DNA from: Arthrobacter dokdonellae
Lineage (GTDB): Bacteria > Actinomycetota > Actinomycetes > Actinomycetales > Micrococcaceae
Assembly: GCF_003268655.1 (NCBI RefSeq)
Contig: NZ_CP029642.1
Span: forward strand, 868,001 to 932,000
DNA: 64,000 nucleotides
Direction of reading: 5' to 3'
Part shown: positions 1 through 15,642 of the stretch, piece by piece
How the letters are laid out: each line of letters opens with the position of its first letter
Position numbering within the stretch: the stretch's first letter is position 1
Made by a program: the position numbers and the translations under genes
Notes under the pieces: model-generated
The model's database searches: none
The model's input: the letters and a program-made list of their open reading frames with translations, nothing else
What the model was told of the DNA's origin: nothing

Positions 1-2860
1 CGATTTCCTGCGCCATCGCCACCAGCTCCGCAATAACCTCGGCGGACGTGAGCTGCTGGTTCGTGTACTTGCGCATCAGTTCGGTGATGCGTTCGGAGAA
101 GGCACGCTGGCGCACAATGTTGTTCCGCGTGGTCGCCACCGACTCCTCGGACACCAGCTTCCGCAGCGCCTCGATGGCCAGCTGGGGGTTCCGGGCGCCC
201 TTCGTCTTGGCGATGAACTCGGGGGTGAGGTCGTCCAGCGACGGCTTGGGCATGCCGGCCGCCGAGTAGATGTCCAGCACCTCGCCCGACTGCGTCGCCC
301 CCGCGATCAGCTCGCCCAGCAGCCGCTGGATGTCCTCGGGGATGGGCTCGCCCGAGGCCTGCCGGTCGGCGGCATCGTACTTGGCCATCCACACGCGGAT
401 CTCCTCGTACATCTGCACCTCGGGCCGCAGCTGGGCGAGGGCGGCCGAGCCCGAGCACAGGGCCCAGGCCCGCGAGAGCTGACCACTGTAGCGGCGGTAC
501 CTGGCGGCCAGGGTTTCCTCCCCGTCCGACGGCGCGTTCCCCGGTGTTGCCGGGCTGCGCAGGTAGGCGGTGGCCCCGGTGGCGGCGTTGATCCAGGCCT
601 TCGGGCCACCCCTGTTCAGCACGGACTTCCAGTCGTAGCCGGCCAGCAGCTGCCCGAGGGTCCCCAGCAGGGTGACGGTCATGGCGATGGCCTCGTCCAC
701 GTTCCTGCCCACCGGCTTGTTCGCCTGGTCGGACTGCGTGTATTCGCCCAGCGCCTTGGCGAGGTTGTCGGCCAGCGGCGCGTAGGCCACCAGCAGCCCG
801 TCCTCCTTGCCGCGGAAGGTGCGGTTCACCCGGGCCAGGGTCTGCATGAGCAGCGCGCCCTTCAGCGGCCGGTCCAGGTACAGGGTGTGCAGCGGCGGGG
901 CGTCAAAGCCGGTGAGCATCATGTCCTTGACGATCACCAGTTCCAGCTCGTCGTCGGGGTTCTTGAGCCTGGCCTTGATGGCGGCGTTCAGCGAATCGCG
1001 CCGCACATGAAGGGACACCGGGGGCGTGTCCGTCGCGTCGCCGGAGTAGACCACCTTGATCCTGCCGGCGTCGAGCTCGTCGGAGTGCCAGCCGGGCCGC
1101 AGTTCCACGATCGCCGCATACAGCCTGGCGCAGATCTCCCGGGTGCCGGCCACGATCATGGCCTTGCCGGGCCCCTCGATGAACTTGTGCATGACGGCCC
1201 GGCGGCCCTCCCAGTGCGCCACCAGGTCCCCGGCCAGGGCGGCGATGCGCTCCGGCGCGCCGTACACGGCGTTGACGACGGCGACGCTCGCCTCGATGCG
1301 GGCGCGTTCGGTCATGTCCAGGCCCACGGTCGCGTCGTCGGCCGCGGCGTCCAGCTGCTCCTCGGTCACGGACCCGGCCAGCCCCACCTTGATCAGGCGC
1401 GGCTCGAAGTAGACGGGCACGGTGGCGCCGTCGTCCACGGCCCGGGTCAGGTCGTAGATGTCGATGTAGTCGCCAAAGACGTCGCGGGTGTTGCGGTCCT
1501 CGAAGGAGATCGGCGTGCCGGTGAAGGCGATGAGTGTTGCGTGCGGCAGGGCGTCGCGCAGGTGCCGGGCGTAGCCGTCCAGGTCGTCGTAGTGGCTGCG
1601 GTGGGCCTCGTCCACCACCACGATGATGTTCCGCCGGTCGCTGAGGAGCGGGTGGTCCGTGCCGGCCTCCTTCTCGGCCTGGCTGCGGCCAAACTTCTGC
1701 AGGGTGGTGAAGTAGATGCCGCCGGTGGTGCGGTTGCTCAGCTCATCGCGAAGTTCCGAGCGGCGCCGGACCTGGCGCGGCTTCTCGGGCAGCAGCTGGC
1801 TTTGCGCGAACGTCTCGTACAGCTGGCCGTCGAGTTCGTTGCGGTCCGTGATGACCACCACCGTCGGGTTTTTCAGCCGCGGGTGGCGGATCACGCGGTT
1901 GGTGTACAGCTCCATTTCCATGGACTTGCCAGATCCCTGGGTGTGCCAGACGACGCCGGCCTTCCCGTTGGATTCGACCGCCTGGACCGTGTTTCCCACT
2001 GCCTTGGTGACGGCGAAGTACTGGTGCGGCTTGGCGATGCGCTTGCTCAGCCCGTCAGCGTTTTCGTCGAAGGCGGTGAAATCGTTGAGCAGCTGCAGGA
2101 ACCGGTCCTGGTTGTACAGGCCCATCAGGGCCGTCTCCATGCCGGTGACAGCCTCCCCGTCCAGGGTGAAGCCCGGCGGAACGGGGACGCCGTCGTCGTC
2201 GACGTTCCAGGGGGAGAAGTGGTTGAACGGGGTGAAAGGGGTGCCGTACTTGGCCTGGATGCCGTCGCTGGCGAGGGTGAAGACGCAGAAGCGGAAGGCC
2301 ATGGGGAATTCGCGCAGGTAGGTTTGCAGCTGCGCGTGGGCGGCGGCGAGGTCGGCGTGGGCGCTGCCGGCCTTCTTCAGCTCGACGATGCTGACGGGCA
2401 TGCCGTTGCAGTAGAGGACCAGGTCGAAGCGGCGCTTGTAGTCCCCCGCCACGAGGGTGACCTGGTTGACGGCAAGCCAGTCGTTCCGGTCCGGGTCGGC
2501 GCTGAGCAGGTGGATGGTGGCGTTGACGTCGGACCCGTCGCTGTCGATGTAGCTGAGCCGGTAGCCGTGGACCAGGTAGGCGTGGATGCGCTGGTTTTCG
2601 GTGATGGCGTCATTGGACGTGGGGGCGGTGATTTCCGCGAGCGCCTGCTTGAGGTACTGCAGGGGAACCGTGGGGTTGAGCTTTTGCAGGGCGGCGAGAA
2701 TGCGGGGGCGGATGAGCAGCTCCGACCACGATTCGCGCTCGTCCCTGCCGGGCGCGATCTCCTCGCCGGGCTTGGGCCGCCAGCCCAGCGGCTCGGCCAG
2801 CTGCTCAAGGGCAAGGCCCTCCCAGTCGGCCTCGGAAAAGCCGGTGCCTGCCACTGCCAT
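1..2860 (-). CDS. hsdR: Type I restriction endonuclease subunit R (HsdR), 3' end cut by window edge
   Basis: Motor and nuclease subunit of a type I restriction-modification complex: it translocates DNA by ATP hydrolysis and cuts unmodified DNA together with HsdM and HsdS. The frame is open from ATG 2860 to base 1, giving 953 codons; family members are usually about 1000-1100 residues, so only the C-terminal tail is missing. Visible motifs are the PD-(D/E)xK nuclease site (D146, E160-L-K162), Walker A GSGKS (309-313) and the DEAH helicase box (417-420), followed by a second RecA-like half (LTGFDAPPLHTLYLDR, then QTLARVNR). It lies 6.6 kb away from hsdS/hsdM, with unrelated genes between; normally the three genes form one operon. 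Family identity is certain. That it works with the hsdM/hsdS of this window is inferred from orientation and proximity. Confidence 0.96.
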   Translation of the reverse strand, partial: MAVAGTGFSEADWEGLALEQLAEPLGWRPKPGEEIAPGRDERESWSELLIRPRILAALQKLNPTVPLQYLKQALAEITAPTSNDAITENQRIHAYLVHGYRLSYIDSDGSDVNATIHLLSADPDRNDWLAVNQVTLVAGDYKRRFDLVLYCNGMPVSIVELKKAGSAHADLAAAHAQLQTYLREFPMAFRFCVFTLASDGIQAKYGTPFTPFNHFSPWNVDDDGVPVPPGFTLDGEAVTGMETALMGLYNQDRFLQLLNDFTAFDENADGLSKRIAKPHQYFAVTKAVGNTVQAVESNGKAGVVWHTQGSGKSMEMELYTNRVIRHPRLKNPTVVVITDRNELDGQLYETFAQSQLLPEKPRQVRRRSELRDELSNRTTGGIYFTTLQKFGRSQAEKEAGTDHPLLSDRRNIIVVVDEAHRSHYDDLDGYARHLRDALPHATLIAFTGTPISFEDRNTRDVFGDYIDIYDLTRAVDDGATVPVYFEPRLIKVGLAGSVTEEQLDAAADDATVGLDMTERARIEASVAVVNAVYGAPERIAALAGDLVAHWEGRRAVMHKFIEGPGKAMIVAGTREICARLYAAIVELRPGWHSDELDAGRIKVVYSGDATDTPPVSLHVRRDSLNAAIKARLKNPDDELELVIVKDMMLTGFDAPPLHTLYLDRPLKGALLMQTLARVNRTFRGKEDGLLVAYAPLADNLAKALGEYTQSDQANKPVGRNVDEAIAMTVTLLGTLGQLLAGYDWKSVLNRGGPKAWINAATGATAYLRSPATPGNAPSDGEETLAARYRRYSGQLSRAWALCSGSAALAQLRPEVQMYEEIRVWMAKYDAADRQASGEPIPEDIQRLLGELIAGATQSGEVLDIYSAAGMPKPSLDDLTPEFIAKTKGARNPQLAIEALRKLVSEESVATTRNNIVRQRAFSERITELMRKYTNQQLTSAEVIAELVAMAQEI

Positions 2861-3035: not shown

Positions 3036-3348
3036 TGCCCAGTTCCGCTTCCAGGAGTTCGACGCTCAGCAGCGTGGATTTGAACTCCTTCGGCAGGGAG
3101 GCCGTGATTTGGGTTTTCCATTCGGCCACGCCAATCGGTGCGCTGTCACCGCGCAGGGCGTATGCGGCCACCACGTTGTTATTGCTTCTGCATAGCAGCA
3201 GGCCCATGGTCGGCTTGTCGTCCGGGTGGGGCACCAAGTCGTCCAAGGCAGCCATGTGCATGCCCAGCTGGCCGGAATGCCCGGGATCGAACGTGCCGGC
3301 CTTAAGTACAATCACCACAAAGCTGCCAAGCCGGAAGTGGTAGAACCA
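3036..3348 (-). pseudogene. Remnant of YhcG/DUF1016 PD-(D/E)xK nuclease-domain protein
   Basis: About 100 codons match the C-terminal part of DUF1016/YhcG proteins, as I recall the family: FYHFRLGSFVVIVLKAG, then GQLGMHMAALDDLVPHPDD, GLLLCRSNNNVVAAYALRG and a terminal LEAEL. Intact members have about 350 residues; the N-terminal DUF1016 domain and the acidic residue before FYH are absent. The conserved acidic residue of the E/D-x-K pair is replaced by V (VIVLK). The frame has no proper stop and runs on into an unrelated frame of hsdR. So it is 5'-truncated, lacks both catalytic acids and has lost its end. It lies just 5' of hsdR on the same strand, a common place for this family within type I loci. 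Confidence 0.8.
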
Positions 3349-7717: not shown

Positions 7718-9184
7718 CTATGAACCGGGCCGTTCGACGGCGGGGGCGGCGTCGAGTTCGCTGTGCCGGGGGCTGTCCGGGTTCATCAGCGAGTGCTTGC
7801 GGCTGTACGTGAAGTAGATGACCAGGCCGATCGCCAGCCACACCACGAAGCGAAGCTTGGTTTCCCAGGACAGCTGCCAGATCAGGAACAGCGAGAACAG
7901 CACGCCCACCGCGGGGACGGCGGGCATGAACGGCAGCCGGAAGGTGCGCGGCGCATCCGGCTTGGTGTAGCGGAACACGATCACGGAAATGCAGACCACC
8001 ACGAATGCGGCCAGAATGCCGATGTTTGTCAGGTCGGCCACCAGGCGGATGGGGAAGACGCCGGCCAGGAAGGCTGAGCCCAGCCCGGCAATCCACGTGA
8101 CGCGCCTGGGTGTGCCGCGGTGGTCCACCTTGGAGAACCACTTGGGCAGCAGCCCGTCGCGGCTCATGGAGAACCAGACGCGGCTGACGCCGAGCAGGAA
8201 GGTCAGCATCACGGTCAGGATGGACAGCACGGCGAAAACGGAGATGATGCTGGCTATGACCGGCAGGCCGACGCCGGTGAAGGCGGAGGCGAACCCGGCC
8301 GTGGGGTCGATGTTCTTGTAGTTCTGCATGCCGGTCAGCACCAGGGTCGCGGCGACGTAGAGCAGCATGGCGATCACCAGGGACATGATGATGGCCTTGG
8401 GCATGTGCTTCTTGCCGTCCTTGGCTTCCTCGGCCGCCGTGCTCATGGCGTCGTAGCCGAACACGGCGAAGAAGACGGTGGCCGCGCCCGTGACGACCGG
8501 GCCGAAGCCGCTGGGCATGAACGGGTTGTAGTTGTGCGCGTTGACGTAGAACATGCCCAACCCCACGATGAACAGGATCAGCACAATCTTGATGGCCACG
8601 GCCGCGAGTTCGAACCGGCCCAGCGCCTTGGTGCCGCGGCTGAGGATCCAGGTGACCAGCAGGCAGACGAGGATGGCGGGCAGGTTGATCAGGCCGCCGT
8701 CTTCCGCGGTGGCGGATATGGCGTGTGGCAGGTGCATGCCGAAACCGCCGAGGAAGGCGTTGATGTAGCCGGAGATGCCGATGGCGACGACGGCGACAAT
8801 GGCGATGTACTCCAGCAGCAGGTCCCAGCCGATGAACCAGCCGGTCAGCTCGCCCAGCGCCACGTACCCGTAGGTGTAGGCGGAGCCTGCCCGTGGGATC
8901 ATGCCCGCGAATTCCGCGTAGGACAGCGCGGCGGCGGCGGAGGCCAGCCCGGCGATGAGGAAGGAGATCAGCACGGCCGGCCCGACGCCGGGATGGCTCG
9001 GGTCGCCGTGGGCCACGAGCCCGGCGAGCGAGAAGATGCCGACGCCGATGATGCCGCCGACGCCGATCGCGGTCAGCTGCCACAGACCCAGGGATTTGAG
9101 CAGGCCGCTCTTTGCGCTCTCAATGTCCATCTCGGCGATCGGCTTGCGCCGCCAGACGGACTGTGGGTTTGGGGTTGTTGCCAT
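7718..9184 (-). CDS. APC-superfamily amino acid permease (cationic amino acid transporter type)
   Basis: A 488-residue inner-membrane transporter with about 12 hydrophobic segments. The first helix carries the APC signature GVGGIIGVGIFSLAG; next come SYAEFAGMIPRAGSAYTYGY (helix 3) and GYDAMSTAAEEAKDGKKHMP (helix 6/7). This pattern is typical of the cationic amino acid transporter branch, but the substrate cannot be read from the sequence. ATG 9184 has AAGGAG 9 bases upstream. It stands alone, bounded by a terminator and a structured leader, between hsdS and the stress block. Confidence 0.9.
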   Translation of the reverse strand: MATTPNPQSVWRRKPIAEMDIESAKSGLLKSLGLWQLTAIGVGGIIGVGIFSLAGLVAHGDPSHPGVGPAVLISFLIAGLASAAAALSYAEFAGMIPRAGSAYTYGYVALGELTGWFIGWDLLLEYIAIVAVVAIGISGYINAFLGGFGMHLPHAISATAEDGGLINLPAILVCLLVTWILSRGTKALGRFELAAVAIKIVLILFIVGLGMFYVNAHNYNPFMPSGFGPVVTGAATVFFAVFGYDAMSTAAEEAKDGKKHMPKAIIMSLVIAMLLYVAATLVLTGMQNYKNIDPTAGFASAFTGVGLPVIASIISVFAVLSILTVMLTFLLGVSRVWFSMSRDGLLPKWFSKVDHRGTPRRVTWIAGLGSAFLAGVFPIRLVADLTNIGILAAFVVVCISVIVFRYTKPDAPRTFRLPFMPAVPAVGVLFSLFLIWQLSWETKLRFVVWLAIGLVIYFTYSRKHSLMNPDSPRHSELDAAPAVERPGS

Positions 9185-9199
9185 GCGCGGGTCTCCTTA

Positions 9200-9286
9200 G
9201 TGGACGGCGCCATCCGGTACCTCTAGGGGAGTGCCGGTCTGGCCGTCGCGTGATCTAAATTACTGCCTCTTTAGTTTGCCGTCCAC
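9200..9286 (-). promoter_or_regulatory. Possible structured leader of the APC permease mRNA
   Basis: In the minus-strand transcript GTGGACGGC (9286-9278) can pair perfectly with GCCGTCCAC (9208-9200), enclosing about 70 nt. The 3' arm ends right before the TAAGGAG ribosome binding site of the permease gene, so folding could influence translation. It matches no riboswitch class that I recognise. Confidence 0.3.
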
Positions 9287-9429
9287 CATCCATTATGAAA
9301 AGTGACTTCTCTTAAGTAGTATTCGTAAGCTGTGCTCACTTATCTGTCTGCATCTGCTTGCACGGCGCTAACGGTCGCGGGCGGTTCTGGCGCCGACAGA
9401 GGAGCTTTCGGTGGCATATCCCGTCAGCC

Positions 9430-9477
9430 GGCCTGGAAACCACGTCCAGGCCGTCCACTGCCAACGGCTATTGGCAG
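9430..9477 (-). terminator. Double hairpin after hsdS
   Basis: Two stems lie back to back just after the hsdS stop: CTGCCAA/TTGGCAG (9458-9477) and GGCCTGGA/TCCAGGCC (9430-9452, perfect 8-bp arms). They mark the end of the hsdM-hsdS transcript. The rest of 9185-9487 holds the permease promoter region and no gene that I can see. Confidence 0.6.
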
Positions 9478-9487
9478 TTCCCCGCCC

Positions 9488-10687
9488 TTAAACCGCTGCA
9501 GCGACAAGGGCTTGGGCTTCCTTGACGCGGAGTTTGCCGGACATCAGCTGCGGAAGCAGCGCGTCGCGGGTGGCGCCGAGAGTTCGGTTTTCTGCTCGCG
9601 TTGTGGCCACCCTTGCTCCAATTGCAGTAACTTGTGCCAACACTGAAATGGGTATTGAACTTGGGCTTGGAACCAATGTTGCTAGCAAGTCGCTGGGTCT
9701 CACCCGCTGATGGCTGCTAGAGGTGCCTGCAACTTGGGTTTCAAGCGAAGCGCTGAATGAAGGCTGCGAAAGCATGGCCCAGATGACTGCCGTGGACACT
9801 TGCTTCGGTTCCAAGACCAGGAACTCAGTAGACGCGAGCGAGGGGATATCTGGCATAGTCGCGACGTCCCAGACCCTTGGGAAGCGCGGGTTTAGCTTAG
9901 AAATGAGAACGGACGGCCGCTCGATCAAGAACTTATTGCTCTTGATGGTTGAGGGTTCGCAGAATTCCGGGCTTTGGTCCACGTCGAAGGCAGGCAAACT
10001 GAAGTGAGCCACTTTGTCCACAGGCATCGACTCCGGATTGGTCGACGTCTTGCGATGCTCAACGATTTCGGAAATCGGCACAGTGGCTGGATAGGCCGTC
10101 AACAATGTCGTCATCAGGCCAGTTGCTGTGTCAGCAAGTTTGGTGTTGGCGGCGATCTTGTCGTCGAGGGCGCCCAGGACTTCTGCGATGGCGCATTGCT
10201 CCTGCAAGGGGGGGAGCAGAAGAGTATGGGCCTTGACGATGTCTGTCTTCAAATTAGTGAAGATAGAGCCGTTCCCCTGACCTGCCAAGTGCTTTCTGTC
10301 ATTCAAAAATATATAGTAGAAGAATTTAGGATCGATGCCTCGAAGATTTCGGAGCAGTAGCCAGCCATCGTGAATGCAGGCTTCGATTCCTAAGATTTTC
10401 GGAATGCCTGGTGTCGCGCTGTTGGACAGGATTAGATCGCCGGGACGAACTACAACACTCTTACTTCGTCCCTCATGGCGGATAAATTCGCGCGTCCTTG
10501 TTATGTACCTCGAGGGATCTGCTGTGGCGTCAGCGATTTTGATCCATGGTGTCCCCTCCGGCACTATCCATTCGTGGATCGGACGTGGAGAGGCTCCTCG
10601 GGTTACATCGCAAAGCTCATCTACCCGTTTCAAAGGCCATTCGGGCGTGATATCAAATAAGTAATTGAACGAATCTGGAAGGCTCAT
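9488..10687 (-). CDS. hsdS: Type I restriction-modification specificity subunit S (HsdS)
   Basis: A 399-residue subunit that sets the target sequence of the HsdM/HsdR complex. It has two target-recognition domains, each followed by a conserved helix: TRD1 about residues 15-150 ending in LLLPPLQEQCAIAEVLGALDDKI-type sequence, then TRD2 and the closing helix LGATRDALLPQLMSGKLRV, which is the classical HsdS end. Its ATG overlaps the hsdM stop (ATGA), so translation is coupled. The gene is visibly AT-richer than its neighbours (for example near 10300-10340), as expected for exchanged recognition domains. Confidence 0.95.
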   Translation of the reverse strand: MSLPDSFNYLFDITPEWPLKRVDELCDVTRGASPRPIHEWIVPEGTPWIKIADATADPSRYITRTREFIRHEGRSKSVVVRPGDLILSNSATPGIPKILGIEACIHDGWLLLRNLRGIDPKFFYYIFLNDRKHLAGQGNGSIFTNLKTDIVKAHTLLLPPLQEQCAIAEVLGALDDKIAANTKLADTATGLMTTLLTAYPATVPISEIVEHRKTSTNPESMPVDKVAHFSLPAFDVDQSPEFCEPSTIKSNKFLIERPSVLISKLNPRFPRVWDVATMPDIPSLASTEFLVLEPKQVSTAVIWAMLSQPSFSASLETQVAGTSSSHQRVRPSDLLATLVPSPSSIPISVLAQVTAIGARVATTRAENRTLGATRDALLPQLMSGKLRVKEAQALVAAAV

Positions 10688-12444
10688 GAAACCCTCCCCA
10701 GCTGCTCGCGCACAACCGCCGCAAGGCGCTCGGACTCGTCGAATTGGGCAAAGAGCTCGGCGGAGAGCCGTGCAATCTTTTCCTCGATCGGCTCGCCGTC
10801 GTCCTCCACGTCGGCGGCGCCAACGTAGCGGCCCGGGGTCAAGGCGTAGTCGGCGGCCTTGATCTCGGCGAGGGAGGCTGAGTAGCAGAAGCCGGGGACG
10901 TCGGCGTAGGGGGTTTCGGCAGGGCTCTGGGCCTCCGGGTCTCGACGCGCTCGCAGAGCTCGCTGCTCGACCACCGGGAGGGTCTCGACAGGCTCGACCA
11001 CCGGGAGGGTCTCGACAGGCTCGACCACCGGAGGCTCGACCGGCGGGGATGGCTCGACCACGGGCGGGGTGCCGCGCCAGGCGTGGAAGGTGCCCGCGAT
11101 CTTGGCAATGTCCTCGTCGGAAAGGGCCCGTTCGGCACGGTCGACCATGTGGCCCAGGTTTCGGGCGTCGATGAACAGCACCTGACCGGTCCTGTCCACA
11201 GACCCGCCAGAGCCGGCAGTCTTGTCCTTCGCAAAGAACCACGTGCACACGGGGATGCCGGTGGAACGGAACAGCTGGGTGGGCAGCGCCACCATGCAGG
11301 AGACGAGGTCCGCCTCCACGAGCTGGGCGCGGATCTCGCCCTCGCCGCCGGAGTTCGAGGACATGGAGCCGTTGGCCATGACCACGCCGGCGGAGCCGCC
11401 CGGGGCCAGCTTGGAAATGATGTGCTGGATCCACGCATAGTTCGCGTTTCCGGCCGGCGGGACGCCGTACTTCCAGCGGGGATCCGACTCCGAACGCGCC
11501 CAGTCCTTGATGTTGAACGGCGGGTTGGCCATGATGAAGTCGGCCTGCATGTCCGGGTGCTGGTCGCGGGCAAAGGTGTCGCCCCAGCGCGAGGCCAGGT
11601 TGCCGTTGAGCCCGTGGATGGCCAGGTTCATCTTCGCCATCCGCCAGGTGCGCTCGTTGAGCTCCTGGCCGTACACGGAAATCTCCGAGCCCTCCTTGTT
11701 GTGGGCCTCCAGGAACTTCTCGGCCTGGACGAACATGCCGCCCGAACCACAGGCGGGGTCGTACACGCGGCCGTGGTCCGGGCGCAGCACCTCGACGAGC
11801 ACGCGGACCACGCCGGCGGGGGTGTAGAACTCGCCGCCGCGTTTGCCCTCGGCGCGGGCGAACTTCTCCAGGAAGTACTCGTAGACCTCGCCGAGGAGGT
11901 CGCGGGCCTTCGTGGCGCCCTGGCCGGTGAACTTGGCCGAGTTGAACAGGTCCAGCAGCTCGCCCAGGCGGCGCTGGTCCACGTTGTCCTTGTTGAAGAT
12001 CATCGGCAGCGTTGCCGCCAACGACGGGTTCGAGCCCATCACGTACGCCATGGCGTCGTCGATGAGCTCGCCGATGCTCTTGGCGTGCTCGTCCAGGGTG
12101 GCCTGGGTGCCCTTGGCGTTCTGCGCCAGGTACGTCCAGCGGGCGCGGGCCGGGACCCAGAACACGCCGCGGCCGGTGTATTCGTCGACGTCGTCGATGA
12201 GCTGGCCGATCTGCTCCTCGTTCAGGCCGTCGGCCTCCAGTTCGGCGCGGATCTGCTCGCGGCGCTCGTCAAAGGCGTCGGAGACGTACTTCAGGAACAC
12301 GAGCCCCAGGATGACGTCCTTGTACTGTGAGGCATCCATGGACCCGCGCAGCTTGTCCGCGGCCTTCCACAGGGTGTCCTTGAGTTCCTTCATGGTGGAC
12401 GGGGCGGCGTCCAAGTTCTTCGCGGTGCTTTTCTTCGGGGGCAT
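10684..12444 (-). CDS. hsdM: Type I N6-adenine DNA methyltransferase subunit M (HsdM) with in-frame repeat insert
   Basis: A 586-residue methyltransferase that, with HsdS, methylates adenine at the recognition site. The N-terminal HsdM helical domain (KELKDTLWKAADKLRG) is followed by the N6-MTase fold: SAM motif DPACGSGG at 229-236 and catalytic NPPF at 307-310. Between AWRGT and YADVPGFC, about residues 461-503, sits an extra low-complexity segment with VVEPVETLP twice, encoded by a dispersed DNA repeat. The usual C-terminus (LTPGRYVGA) continues after it, so the frame is kept. AAGGAAG lies 7 bases before ATG 12444. It is 15 bases downstream of the HTH/methylase-like gene. Confidence 0.96.
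   Translation of the reverse strand: MPPKKSTAKNLDAAPSTMKELKDTLWKAADKLRGSMDASQYKDVILGLVFLKYVSDAFDERREQIRAELEADGLNEEQIGQLIDDVDEYTGRGVFWVPARARWTYLAQNAKGTQATLDEHAKSIGELIDDAMAYVMGSNPSLAATLPMIFNKDNVDQRRLGELLDLFNSAKFTGQGATKARDLLGEVYEYFLEKFARAEGKRGGEFYTPAGVVRVLVEVLRPDHGRVYDPACGSGGMFVQAEKFLEAHNKEGSEISVYGQELNERTWRMAKMNLAIHGLNGNLASRWGDTFARDQHPDMQADFIMANPPFNIKDWARSESDPRWKYGVPPAGNANYAWIQHIISKLAPGGSAGVVMANGSMSSNSGGEGEIRAQLVEADLVSCMVALPTQLFRSTGIPVCTWFFAKDKTAGSGGSVDRTGQVLFIDARNLGHMVDRAERALSDEDIAKIAGTFHAWRGTPPVVEPSPPVEPPVVEPVETLPVVEPVETLPVVEQRALRARRDPEAQSPAETPYADVPGFCYSASLAEIKAADYALTPGRYVGAADVEDDGEPIEEKIARLSAELFAQFDESERLAAVVREQLGRVS
10937..11060. repeat. Dispersed GGTCTCGACAGGCTCGACCACCGGG repeat cluster inside hsdM
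   Basis: Two identical 27-bp units lie in tandem at 10981-11007 and 11008-11034 (each begins GGTCTCGACAGG and ends CACCGGGAG). They are preceded by a longer variant (10937-10980, with CGCGCTCGCAGAGCTCGC in the middle) and followed by partial units. Read on the minus strand the unit keeps the hsdM frame as VVEPVETLP. Related copies occur at 19575-19650 and 33056-33078. Confidence 0.9.
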
Positions 12445-12458
12445 TGAACATCTTCCTT

Positions 12459-14501
12459 TTACGTTAAATCGATCGTAGCGTCCACGGCGAGCCCGCCGGC
12501 GCTGACGCCGTCGCGCAGGAGCGTGGTGAGTTCGGTGAGGCGGTCGAGCCTGAGCTGGGCGGCGCCCCGTTCCTGATCCAGGAGTCCCAGGGCGTGCTGC
12601 AGCTGCCGTGCCGCGGCGTGCGGCACCAGCCGGAGCGCCCAGTGCCGCCAGTCCTTGGAGGCGGCGGCATTGATGTCCGCGGCGACCAGCTCCGGCATGA
12701 GCCCGCCGGGATCGGCGCCGCTGATCCGCAGCACCCGGGCGGGATATTCGACGACGGCCCCGCCCCCGGCGTCGACGGCCGCCGCGGGTGTGGGGACGGT
12801 GGCGAAGACGACGTCGCCGGGCTCGGTCAGCCGCGCGTTGGGGTGGTTGGCCGCCAGGACCAGGCGGTCGATCCTCCTGACAGCCGTGCCGCGGCGTCCC
12901 TGCCCCGCGCCGCGCCCAAGGTCCGCGGGCCCGAGGACCCGGGCGCCGCCGTCGTCCGCCAGCGGCAGACCGGCGGCGAGGCGCACCCCCTGGACGTAGC
13001 GCAGGTGGCCCTGCGACAGCAGCACGTCAACCATTTCGGTGTTGGGGGTGCCGTGGCCCAGCGACACCCCGACGGACAGGGGCGCCGGGGCCGCCGCGGG
13101 ATCGTTGAGCCGGGCGAGGAGCCGGTCCGCCCGCACCGCCTGCTCGGCAGCGGCGGGCCCGTCGCGGCGGGCCGCGGCGTGACGGACCAGCGCGCCGCGG
13201 CGGGCGAGCAGGCGGGAGGTGGGCACGGTGCGGGCAAAGCGCATGGCGTGGGAGCGGATCAGGCCCGCCGTTCCCAGCGAAACGGCGAGGTCGCCCACTA
13301 GGTCCTGCACGGCGTCGGCGGTCAACGGGGTGTCGGTGAGGTCGGCGACCATGGTCCAGCGCTCGGCGATCGGCACGGACGCGTGGGCGGGGCCGAGCAC
13401 CCAGAGGGCCAGCGACTGGCGGGCCTTGGCGGGGACCAGGCCGGCGGGGAGGCGGACGATGGCGCGCACCCGGCCCGAGCGGAGCAGGTCCGAGCGCACA
13501 TCGGCGGCCCTCGCGTCGTCGAGGGCGTCCGTAAGCACCGACGCCGGAGCCATGAAAACCCCGCGCTGCGAATCGTCCATCTGCAGGACGGTGTTCTCAA
13601 TGTCCGCCAGAATGTCCGGCGCCGCCAGGTCCGGGGCGCCGGGCGGCGGGTACGACGCCACATGGACGGCCGGTTCCCCGACCGCGAACTGGCCGCCATC
13701 CGACACGGCCAGCGGCCTGCGGCGCGCGCCGTGGACCAGCAGGCGGCGCAGGGCGGTCCGCGACGCCTGGTCCCGCCCGTCGCGCGTCAGGATCAAGGGA
13801 TCCGCATCTTCGGGCAGCCGGTCCAGCACGGCCGTGAGCAGGTCACTGCCGCCGGGGGTGGAATCGACAAACACGGGCCTCCCGGTCCCGTTGCCCGCGG
13901 CCAGTTCGACGGCGGTCCCCGCCGCCAGCTCGACGGCCGGTTGCGCGAGGGCAGTATCCGCCTGGCCGCGCAGCCCGGCCCGGTGGCGGCCGCCCAGGAG
14001 CTGTTCCAGTGCGGCGGCGGGGGAGTAGGCGGCGTCCACCAGCTGGTCGGCGTGCGCCGCTGCCTCCGGGGCCGTCCGGCCCAGGGCCTCGATTTCCGAG
14101 TAGAGGAACTCGTCGTCCGGGTCGGCCTCGTCGGCGGCGTCAAGCAGGTCGTCAAGGTCCAGGCCGGCCAGCGGACCGCCCGTCAGCCGGCGCAGCGTGA
14201 TGAGCGCGGTCTGGGCGGCAAACGCCGCTTCTGGATCCGTCCGGGCGGAATCCCGCCGGGCGAAGGCAGCCATGTCCGCCGCAGCCTGGGGATTGTTGCC
14301 GTGCCGGGTTGACTCGAGCCAGGCCCCCACCTCGCCGGCGTCAAAAAGCTGCTGGCCGCGGATGACGCGGACCGGTTCGGGGAACGGGGTGGAGGTGGTC
14401 CTGCTGCGGCTGCGCCACATCGACACCACCGGGCGCTTCACCTGCGTCAGGGCCGCGATTTCCGCCAACGAGATGCGGAGGGCCGTTGCCTGTTGGTTCA
14501 C
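12459..14501 (-). CDS. HTH / degenerate N6-methylase / specificity-like fusion protein upstream of hsdM
   Basis: A 680-residue protein. Residues 9-62 form a HTH (SLAEIAALTQVKRPVVSMWR, then LFDAGEVGAWL). About 95-420 align by order with an HsdM-type domain (…RSDLLRSGRVRAIVRLPAGL, like the region after NPPF), but the SAM motif is DSTPGGSD from 213 instead of DPACGSGG, and SYPPPGAP near 284 stands where NPPF is expected. About 490-680 resembles an HsdS recognition domain (LTEPGDVVFATV, ARVLRISG, then a closing helix). GTG 14501 is chosen for its GGGGAGG site; earlier in-frame codons lack one. It ends 15 bases before hsdM, so the two are co-transcribed. Catalysis is doubtful; a regulatory or DNA-scanning role is inferred. 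Confidence 0.8.
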   Translation of the reverse strand: MNQQATALRISLAEIAALTQVKRPVVSMWRSRSRTTSTPFPEPVRVIRGQQLFDAGEVGAWLESTRHGNNPQAAADMAAFARRDSARTDPEAAFAAQTALITLRRLTGGPLAGLDLDDLLDAADEADPDDEFLYSEIEALGRTAPEAAAHADQLVDAAYSPAAALEQLLGGRHRAGLRGQADTALAQPAVELAAGTAVELAAGNGTGRPVFVDSTPGGSDLLTAVLDRLPEDADPLILTRDGRDQASRTALRRLLVHGARRRPLAVSDGGQFAVGEPAVHVASYPPPGAPDLAAPDILADIENTVLQMDDSQRGVFMAPASVLTDALDDARAADVRSDLLRSGRVRAIVRLPAGLVPAKARQSLALWVLGPAHASVPIAERWTMVADLTDTPLTADAVQDLVGDLAVSLGTAGLIRSHAMRFARTVPTSRLLARRGALVRHAAARRDGPAAAEQAVRADRLLARLNDPAAAPAPLSVGVSLGHGTPNTEMVDVLLSQGHLRYVQGVRLAAGLPLADDGGARVLGPADLGRGAGQGRRGTAVRRIDRLVLAANHPNARLTEPGDVVFATVPTPAAAVDAGGGAVVEYPARVLRISGADPGGLMPELVAADINAAASKDWRHWALRLVPHAAARQLQHALGLLDQERGAAQLRLDRLTELTTLLRDGVSAGGLAVDATIDLT

Positions 14502-14562
14502 GCGGCCTCCCCTCGATCGGCATGTTCGGTGCGTGTACAGCTTATGTCGCATTCCACAACTT

Positions 14563-14586
14563 GGGGACAACATGTTGATAAGTCCC
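14563..14586. promoter_or_regulatory. Palindromic site upstream of the hsd operon
   Basis: CAACATGTTG (14568-14577) is a perfect 10-bp palindrome, set within GGGGAC...GTCCCC arms (14563-14586), 62 bases upstream of the HTH/methylase-like start. It is a candidate operator for that HTH protein or another regulator. The rest of 14502-14676 shows nothing else clear. Confidence 0.4.
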
Positions 14587-14676
14587 CTTATCAGCTGGTT
14601 TCATCGGAGATCGCTCTTGGAGGGGCTTAGCTTGGTTCTGTCAACGCAGGACAACCACCCATTGGGGGGCACCACC

Positions 14677-14895: not shown

Positions 14896-14985
14896 GCCGC
14901 CCCCGACCGTGGGGTGGCCATTCATTGGGGGACGGCCACTCCACGCCCACTTTTCATCACTCACAGGCTTCTTAGGGGACCAACC

Positions 14986-15642
14986 ATGGAAATCAGCACC
15001 AGCCCTCAACCCACCGATCCGGCGCCACCAGTCGAAGGCGGCCCGGCCACAAAAGGCGCCGCCGGGCGCACATGGAAACTGAAGACGCTCGCGGTCGGGG
15101 GAGCCGCCGTCGTGCTCCTCGGCGCTGGCACCTGGTTCGGCACCACGCTCCCGGACCCCACCGCCAGCGACGCCTATGTGCAGCTGGCGCAGGGCAAGGC
15201 GGGCGTGGACGAAGCCCTCAGCAATTCCAGGGACGCGTACCGGAAGCTGGACGGCGAGTATGCCACCCTGCAAAGCCAAATCAAGGGTCGCGAGGACGCG
15301 GTTTCGGGGCGGGAAAGTGCCGTGGGTGCCGCCGAAAAGAAGGTGGGGGAGGCCGAGGCCGCGGTGAAGAAGCGTGAGGACGCCGTCACAGGGGCGGAGA
15401 AGGCAAAGGCCAAAAACACCATTGACGAAGGCACCTGGGCTGTCGGTCGGGATATCGCGCCGGGCACCTACGTGAGCGCCGCGGCCGTCGGTTCCGACTG
15501 CTACTGGGCCATCCTGGCCGGTGGCAGCAACGGCTCCGACATCATCGAAAACGACATCCCGGGCGGCGGGCGTCCGTCCGTGACGCTCAGCGCCGGGCAG
15601 GACTTCAAGTCCTCCAGCTGTGGCACCTGGACCAAACAGTAG
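14986..15642 (+). CDS. Single-pass membrane protein with extracytoplasmic coiled coil and C-terminal beta domain
   Basis: 218 residues. A cytoplasmic proline-rich start (about 1-30) is followed by one membrane helix (LAVGGAAVVLLGAGTWFG, about 35-53). A charged coiled coil comes next (about 75-145), with E/K/A heptads such as GAAEKKVGEAEAAVKKRED. The C-terminal domain carries the motif GTWAVGRDIAPGTYVS plus two cysteines (DCYW and SSCGTW) that could form a disulfide outside the cell. This C-terminal motif occurs in many uncharacterised actinobacterial secreted proteins. ATG 14986 has AGGGGA upstream. Function unknown; probably envelope-associated. Confidence 0.8.
   Translation: MEISTSPQPTDPAPPVEGGPATKGAAGRTWKLKTLAVGGAAVVLLGAGTWFGTTLPDPTASDAYVQLAQGKAGVDEALSNSRDAYRKLDGEYATLQSQIKGREDAVSGRESAVGAAEKKVGEAEAAVKKREDAVTGAEKAKAKNTIDEGTWAVGRDIAPGTYVSAAAVGSDCYWAILAGGSNGSDIIENDIPGGGRPSVTLSAGQDFKSSSCGTWTKQ

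Follow-up and report, generated by a model that had tools for sequence, protein, structure and literature searches.

A helix-turn-helix protein carrying a degenerate HsdM-like and an HsdS-half-like part, a probable autoregulator of type I restriction-modification operons in actinobacteria

Why should a type I restriction-modification (R-M) operon carry, ahead of its methylase gene hsdM, a further gene for a methylase-like protein with altered catalytic motifs? The question is raised by a gene that we call X, located in a 64,000-nucleotide stretch of the Arthrobacter dokdonellae genome (contig NZ_CP029642.1, positions 868,001 to 932,000 of the forward strand; hereafter the window). An earlier note, made from the sequence alone, had read X as a helix-turn-helix (HTH) joined to an HsdM-like fold and an HsdS-like C-terminus, and had suggested that it might be a DNA-reading regulator of the R-M system built from worn-out M and S modules. 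On the basis of sequence comparisons, we propose that X is probably a dedicated transcriptional autoregulator of the type I R-M operon, composed of an HTH and a catalytically dead HsdM-HsdS fusion. Its parts are as follows.

12459..14501, minus strand: X, an HTH + pseudo-N6-methyltransferase + HsdS-half-like protein (open reading frame of 680 residues with a GTG start)
14316..14480, minus strand: X residues 8-62, N-terminal HTH, HTH_17/MerR-like, the best conserved part of X
13092..13889, minus strand: X residues 205-470, HsdM-like domain (hhalign match at 210-469)
13842..13865, minus strand: X residues 213-220, degenerate motif I DSTPGGSD, where HsdM has DPACGSGG (hhalign and alignment rows)
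13644..13655, minus strand: X residues 283-286, lost motif IV SYPP, which hhalign places under the NPPF of HsdM
12495..13043, minus strand: X residues 487-669, HsdS-half-like region, target recognition domain (TRD) plus helix

The three-part architecture is supported by profile-profile comparison with controls. In hhalign runs with deep alignments (160 X rows, 43 HsdM rows and 36 HsdS rows), residues 210-469 matched HsdM with Prob 95.5 and E 1.6e-8 (93.7 and 2e-7 with full-length X), and residues 487-669 matched an HsdS half with Prob 93.7 and E 1.9e-7 when the C-terminal part of X was the query (88.5 and 2.7e-6 with full-length X). The controls all gave Prob <1, both for the middle of X against HsdS, HsdR and reversed HsdM and for its C-terminus against HsdM, HsdR and reversed HsdS. 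With shallow alignments the same region of X reached only Prob 1.8 and E 0.027, and even at a cut-off of E 1 X alone matched nothing in Pfam, NCBIfam or PADLOC, so that detecting the homology required the deep alignments. Those 160 X rows comprise the window protein (twice), 34 locus frames and 125 database proteins, about every second one of those collected. By these comparisons the HTH of X is followed by an HsdM-like domain and an HsdS-half-like C-terminus, the homology to HsdS covering one half only, TRD plus helix.

Other searches were less informative. Window X has no Methylase_S match in Pfam, the HTH_17/MerR_1 matches are weak, below cut-off and restricted to some of its relatives (window X has none), and X alone matched the PDB only at chance level (E 0.7). 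Profiles of X relatives matched mostly DNA methylases in the PDB, the best being the type I M chain 3lkd (E 0.0017 and 5.6e-5 for two profiles); their weak matches included unrelated proteins such as aminopeptidases, and no HsdS chain was among them. A protein database search with X scored 8000 candidates, of which 475 qualified as relatives at E up to 1e-3 (120 of them listed), and a profile of distant members gave 423 (120 of the 423 are listed). Three plasmids typed as conjugative carry X; the sole viral search, of viral contigs with the Glycomyces X, returned no relative.

Does X have a site that it could read? When X promoters are aligned, a palindrome, TGATAAC-N4-GTTATCA, is kept where the flanks are not, and a putative -10 box follows it.

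14576..14593, no strand assigned: operator palindrome TGATAAG-N4-CTTATCA (family consensus TGATAAC-N4-GTTATCA), from the promoter alignment
14539..14544, minus strand: deduced -10 box TAAGCT, 31 bp downstream of the operator (inferred promoter)

The window has one match to TGATAAG-N4-CTTATCA at up to three mismatches, with 0.20 expected. We scored the best match between 260 bp upstream and 30 bp inside X, allowing C or G at the two innermost positions, and recovered the operator in 49 of 49 X promoters at up to three mismatches in 14 positions (28 with none, 14 with one, 3 with two and 4 with three). The half-sites are complementary in all 49 at four positions and in 46, 39 and 36 at three more. 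These promoters include five incomplete X copies (L028, L031, L032, L035 and L088); outside the set stand duplicate genome copies (L002-L005, L011, L015, L039-L041), L095, whose N-terminus was not recovered, and the plasmid loci L147 and L148. Since loci that are related do not count as independent, all such totals overstate how many evolutionary events took place. Among 290-bp control windows from the same loci, with each locus's operator masked, 31 of 5440 had three or fewer mismatches and three had at most one, all three coming from a second exact site in L114; this masked control replaced an earlier one that still contained real operators (22 of 2879 windows at up to two mismatches). The promoters of 19 HTH-methylase cousins all had four or more mismatches.

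Downstream of the operator, TANNNT occurs at 31-34 bp in 45 of the 49 promoters (at exactly 31 in 25), compared with 64 of 2673 (2.4%) when these promoters are read at different spacings and 117 of 14700 for random positions, while the distance from operator to X start varies from approximately 31 to 172 bp. A longer, ATG-started form of X (from 14573) is unlikely because the deduced -10 box would fall within it. The earlier note had placed a palindrome at 14563-14586 in the X promoter. That inverted repeat, GGGAC...GTCCC around CAACATGTTG, is present, but the conserved operator is the overlapping 14576-14593: the four relatives used for comparison, whose X is 72-91% identical, do not share one arm of the repeat, the window contains 3 copies of CAACATGTTG at up to one mismatch, close to the 1.26 expected by chance, and the repeat, largely kept in the near clade and not beyond it, was rejected as the operator.

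Some X promoters also contain DnaA boxes, whose consensus is TTRTCCACA. Perfect ones lie between operator and -10 in 8 of 49 promoters against 11 of 14700 background 40-mers; when one mismatch is allowed, the counts become 11 of 49 and 103 of 14700. In the 40 bp after the operator they are found in L008, L009, L010, L012, L013, L026, L042 and L043, and weakly in the window (14536-14575), with positions and strands that vary between loci. A link of the operon to replication initiation is possible.

Is the operator specific to X? The 4.53-Mb genome that contains the window has a single site at up to one mismatch. In 58 relatives, searched without a preset list of X loci, 12 of 13 exact matches to TGATAAN6TTATCA are at X promoters; 11 of the 13 relatives with full-length X have an exact site, and the other two, G009 (L026) and G019 (L016), have one-mismatch sites. 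Among 394 genomes of the class there are 20 exact sites, 12 of them at X promoters (two before a truncated X). X at E up to 1e-60 is present in 16 of the class genomes, and in 9 of these an exact site lies at the gene. Close HsdM proteins occur in 33 class genomes, and the 18 of these without full-length X have no exact site anywhere. Fifteen hsdM loci without full-length X show no site within two mismatches, but the roughly 1.5 kb of upstream sequence that they cover stops before the place at which an operator would be expected were X there, and we do not count this result. Separately, an exact operator-type palindrome was seen at G315:C1:3690203-3690220 (L178; L114 14704), about 150 bp past hsdR; the genome concerned carries X as well.

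The part of X expected to read such a site is the HTH, which is more conserved than the other domains of X in each of the four distance bins; over 359 locus pairs with HsdM 60-78% identical, it averages 45.9% identity versus 27.8% for the methylase part (domain identities are from 35 loci, without L028, L031, L032, L035, L088, L086 and the window). Three departures of the operator core from the consensus are accompanied by differences in the recognition helix: GTTAAG goes with RQAV (L091, L092), GATAGC or GATAGT with KDVVHN (L036, L037), and a one-sided GGTAAC with RPVP (L082, L087). These data bear on the idea that the operator belongs to some other host regulator, with X a passenger or pseudo-enzyme that has no DNA-binding role at its own promoter. 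Operator and X could indeed be co-inherited as one cassette, but exact sites lie mostly at X promoters, they are missing from the class genomes that have a close HsdM and no full-length X, and the operator core changes together with the HTH of X; we regard this explanation as highly improbable.

How closely is X tied to the R-M genes? Three further features of the window are relevant.

10684..12444, minus strand: hsdM, with motifs DPACGSGG and NPPF intact
9488..10738, minus strand: hsdS
2..2860, minus strand: hsdR, assigned to the same system and running past the left end of the window

Only 14 bases (12445-12458) separate the X stop codon from the hsdM start, and operons of the form X-hsdM-hsdS(-hsdR), with X as first gene, are found in genera that include Arthrobacter, Pseudonocardia and Glycomyces. 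The earlier note would have given up its reading had homologues never occurred with type I systems; the opposite is the case, with X preceding hsdM in 47 of the 48 copies that had enough flank examined (20 of L016-L037, L042, L043, the window, L079-L085, L087, L089-L094, L114, L006-L010, L012, L013 and two plasmids; L031 and L032, counted among them, carry frameshifts). The distance from X to hsdM, judged by frames, is within about 100 bp except in L094 (about 750 bp). X is truncated, decayed or at a contig end in L028, L035, L088 and L095. A conserved operator at the gene's own promoter, together with linkage to R-M genes, is what would be expected of an autogenous R-M regulator, and the operator, its rarity elsewhere and the hsdM-hsdS-hsdR linkage all favour the suggestion of a DNA-reading regulator made from M and S modules.

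The hsdR gene lies about 6.6 kb downstream of hsdS on the same strand, as a 1092-codon open frame in the genome. The order of hsdM, hsdS and a permease gene first gave the impression of an orphan methylase lacking hsdR; this was rejected, as the window hsdR is the only HSDR_N match in the genome and its product is 79.8-82.1% identical to HsdR of the Micrococcales X-M-S-R loci L019-L025, L027, L030 and L032. Between hsdS and hsdR are permease, DnaJ-like, Hsp20-like and TetR-like genes and a probable DUF1016-like remnant (3040-3345), which shows 67% identity to a portion of the gene located between hsdS and hsdR in L019. Because this remnant lies ahead of the displaced hsdR, the S-R junction seems prone to gains and losses. 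In L035 (about 7941-10013) and L165 (1554-3018), only the HTH end of X is left; the operator still precedes it, and hsdR sequence comes after it. These short forms are apparent remnants of X-M-S deletions. On the other side of X, a divergent neighbour (14914-15642, plus strand) has a weak, below-cut-off coiled-coil match (E2R135), and a similar gene recurs beside X in L017, L019, L021, L023, L027 and L029-L032.

Does the S-like part of X choose DNA targets in the way that HsdS does? In 31 pairs with HsdM 88-97% identical, HsdS averages 31% identity and the TRD of X 63%; because X keeps 63% where HsdS keeps 31%, its S-like domain does not follow target-specificity exchange, and the hypervariable TRD exchange of HsdS was not seen in it. 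The rank correlation between X-TRD and HsdS identity, 0.30 raw, falls to 0.01 given HsdM, and the idea that X follows HsdS specificity was rejected. A fixed DNA target or a protein contact would be a simpler reading of this domain.

Could X nonetheless be a working methylase? At motif IV, an NPPF-type tetrapeptide, (N/D/S)PP(F/Y/W), is present in none of the 160 alignment rows (6 are gapped there); the catalytic Asn position is Gln in 123 rows and Ser in 15. The changes from DPACGSGG to DSTPGGSD and from NPPF to SYPP, first noticed in the sequence itself, thus hold up in hhalign and in the alignment rows. An intact catalytic motif elsewhere in the protein, which would have told against this view, did not turn up: window X has no (N/D/S)PP(F/Y/W/H) tetrapeptide at all, and the only motif-IV-like tetrapeptide among 249 proteins is at residue 202, outside motif IV. 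Within motif I, D213 is kept in 152 of the 160 rows, G217 in 144 and D220 in 147, and nearer-intact versions (DPYAGSGA, DPAAGPGD) are seen in Glycomyces and other distant relatives. Against three near relatives, the ratio of nonsynonymous to synonymous substitution rates is 0.25-0.31 for X and 0.065-0.072 for HsdM. On this measure X is under purifying selection, and decay as a pseudogene was rejected. 'Worn-out' thus fits only in part: because D213, G217 and D220 are mostly kept and Gln so often replaces the lost Asn, X is better called a constrained pseudo-enzyme, predicted to be catalytically dead.

These observations also bear on whether X might be a second modification or specificity subunit, as in M1M2S-like enzymes, directing methylation or restriction to a target of its own. 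X does have HsdM-like and HsdS-like domains, non-canonical M1M2S systems exist (PMC9613975), and cousins with an intact NPPF (L103, L110) adjoin a second hsdM-like gene and hsdS and hsdR matches. However, no row retains motif IV, as a second catalytic M subunit would, and the TRD of X varies in a way unlike that of HsdS, leaving very little probability for such a role.

The more distant HTH-methylases vary at motif IV, with NPPF in L103 and L110, DPPF in L109, HPPF in six and APPF in three. In L103 (6264-10367) and L110 (3439-7904), two methylase-like genes accompany the hsdS and hsdR matches, the first of them coding for an HTH-N6-methylase whose NPPF is intact; X may descend from a working enzyme of this type. 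The HTH-N6-methylases of L096-L102, L104 and L115 have His or Ala in place of the motif IV Asn (HPPF, APPF) and no hsdM or hsdR matches nearby, L100 having a weak hsdS match 3 kb away; they are candidates for another pseudo-methylase group.

X might instead serve the restriction enzyme, primarily as a subunit or modulator, its HsdS-like helix binding HsdM (or HsdR) and tuning assembly as a dominant-negative mimic of M and S, with autoregulation secondary. The M + S-half architecture kept under selection, the position of X before hsdM and the retained D213, G217 and D220 are all compatible with this. X evolves much faster than HsdM and HsdR, though (46-59% identity by domain versus 83% for HsdM and 76% for HsdR over 118 pairs), which is unlike a core subunit of the complex, and modulation alone leaves the conserved operator unexplained, so that we consider it an unlikely primary function. 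A further idea, which we consider rather unlikely, is a sensor-switch derived from a type I methylase (M plus S half), in which the dead pocket (Gln for Asn, motif I D and G kept) and the S-like helix would sense SAM (S-adenosylmethionine), methylated DNA or free HsdM and adjust operon output; DnaA boxes beside the operator in some Arthrobacter-type loci would then tie R-M expression to replication initiation.

Returning to X as an autoregulator, how might it work? We envisage that an X dimer, suggested by the symmetry of the site, uses its HTH to bind TGATAAC-N4-GTTATCA, centred near -52 relative to the deduced transcription start, and that bound X would set transcription of X-hsdM-hsdS and, where adjoining, hsdR. 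The M- and S-like parts would dimerise X, report on DNA, SAM or the levels of HsdM or HsdS, or do both. What the data show is the architecture, the loss of motif IV, the operon linkage and an operator that is both conserved and rare. Binding, dimerisation, the sign of control and the role of the M and S parts are all inferred. Activation, perhaps with self-limitation, is slightly favoured over pure repression because the site immediately precedes the -35 region, at a nearly constant distance from the -10, and because the -35 region itself is poorly conserved and carries little information. Activation from a position upstream of -35 is known for the C proteins of AhdI and PvuII (PMC5282649).

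Several observations weigh against parts of this proposal. As to activation, matches to TTGACA in at least 4 of 6 positions at 16-19 bp were found in 15 of 45 promoters compared with 14% of shuffles, about a twofold excess, and the two regulators of type I operons RptR and HsdC are both described as repressors of their own operons (PMC12255303, PMC5282649). As to the pairing of X with its operator, the covariation with the recognition helix comes from three clades of two loci each; the seventh operator base and a neighbouring helix residue show a weaker trend, with L080 and L093 as counterexamples. Eight of the 20 exact class sites are not at X, three of them in loci of 41-48% GC content, and 7 of the 16 class genomes with X lack an exact site, their X promoters having 1-3 mismatches. 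L086 (7970-10021) has a full-length X and a one-mismatch operator with no hsdM within about 8 kb. Conversely, 15 of the 30 close-HsdM loci examined have X upstream and 15 do not, and a type I system can exist without X. Finally, the window hsdR has no operator at up to three mismatches; X therefore cannot control the displaced hsdR by such a site.

How does X compare with R-M regulators that are already known? In methylase repressors of the M.EcoRII, M.SsoII and Ecl18kI type, an N-terminal HTH binds an operator at the gene's own promoter, and M.EcoRII without catalytic activity remains a repressor provided that its sites have been modified by a different methylase (PMC12707154, PMC3874152). 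X similarly joins an N-terminal HTH to an R-M methylase part and has an operator at its own promoter. Those type II proteins, which are of the C5 class, are working methylases, whereas X is HsdM-like, with motif IV lost across the aligned family and an added HsdS-like half; it heads a type I operon beside a separate HsdM, and its site is upstream of the deduced -35 and not over the promoter. RptR, a 9-kDa single-domain, all-helical repressor conserved in Gammaproteobacteria, is also encoded by the first gene of a type I operon, and its promoter contains palindromic sites in the form of three TAGCTA repeats that cover the -10 (PMC12255303). X shares the first-gene position and the promoter palindrome, but has 680 residues, methylase and S-like parts that RptR lacks, and a TGATAAC-N4-GTTATCA site upstream of the deduced -35. 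HsdC, a transcription factor of a Mollicutes hsd operon, binds direct repeats, (GTGTTAN5)2, at its own operon's promoter, and unlike X it has no M or S module mentioned in the accessible part of that account (PMC5282649). The actinobacterial HTH-N6-methylases matched by the X profile likewise combine an HTH with N6_Mtase (Pfam), but differ from X in having N6_Mtase matches down to E 1.1e-37, in a motif IV that runs from NPPF (L103, L110) and DPPF (L109) to HPPF and APPF, and in lacking the operator at up to three mismatches in 19 of 19 promoters.

A literature search, which left most subscription journals and bioRxiv preprints outside its range, turned up no paper with a title or opening of an abstract describing a protein like X, and the accessible part of a survey of BREX proteins has nothing on it (PMC12839542). 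HTH-methylase repressors and type I regulators such as RptR and HsdC are already known; the X-type fusion with its operator appears to be a new variant.

Control of type I R-M is best known at the post-translational level, as in the destruction of EcoKI HsdR by ClpXP (PMC12255303), and few dedicated type I transcription factors turned up in the literature (RptR, HsdC). With one clearly delimited operator, an actinobacterial regulator of this kind would make transcriptional control of type I R-M directly testable, and X would be a pseudo-enzyme to which a new job can be assigned. Its signature could annotate several hundred genes (the 475 and 423 relatives) now called 'hypothetical' or 'N-6 DNA methylase'. 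Control of establishment would matter most on the conjugative-type plasmids that carry X.

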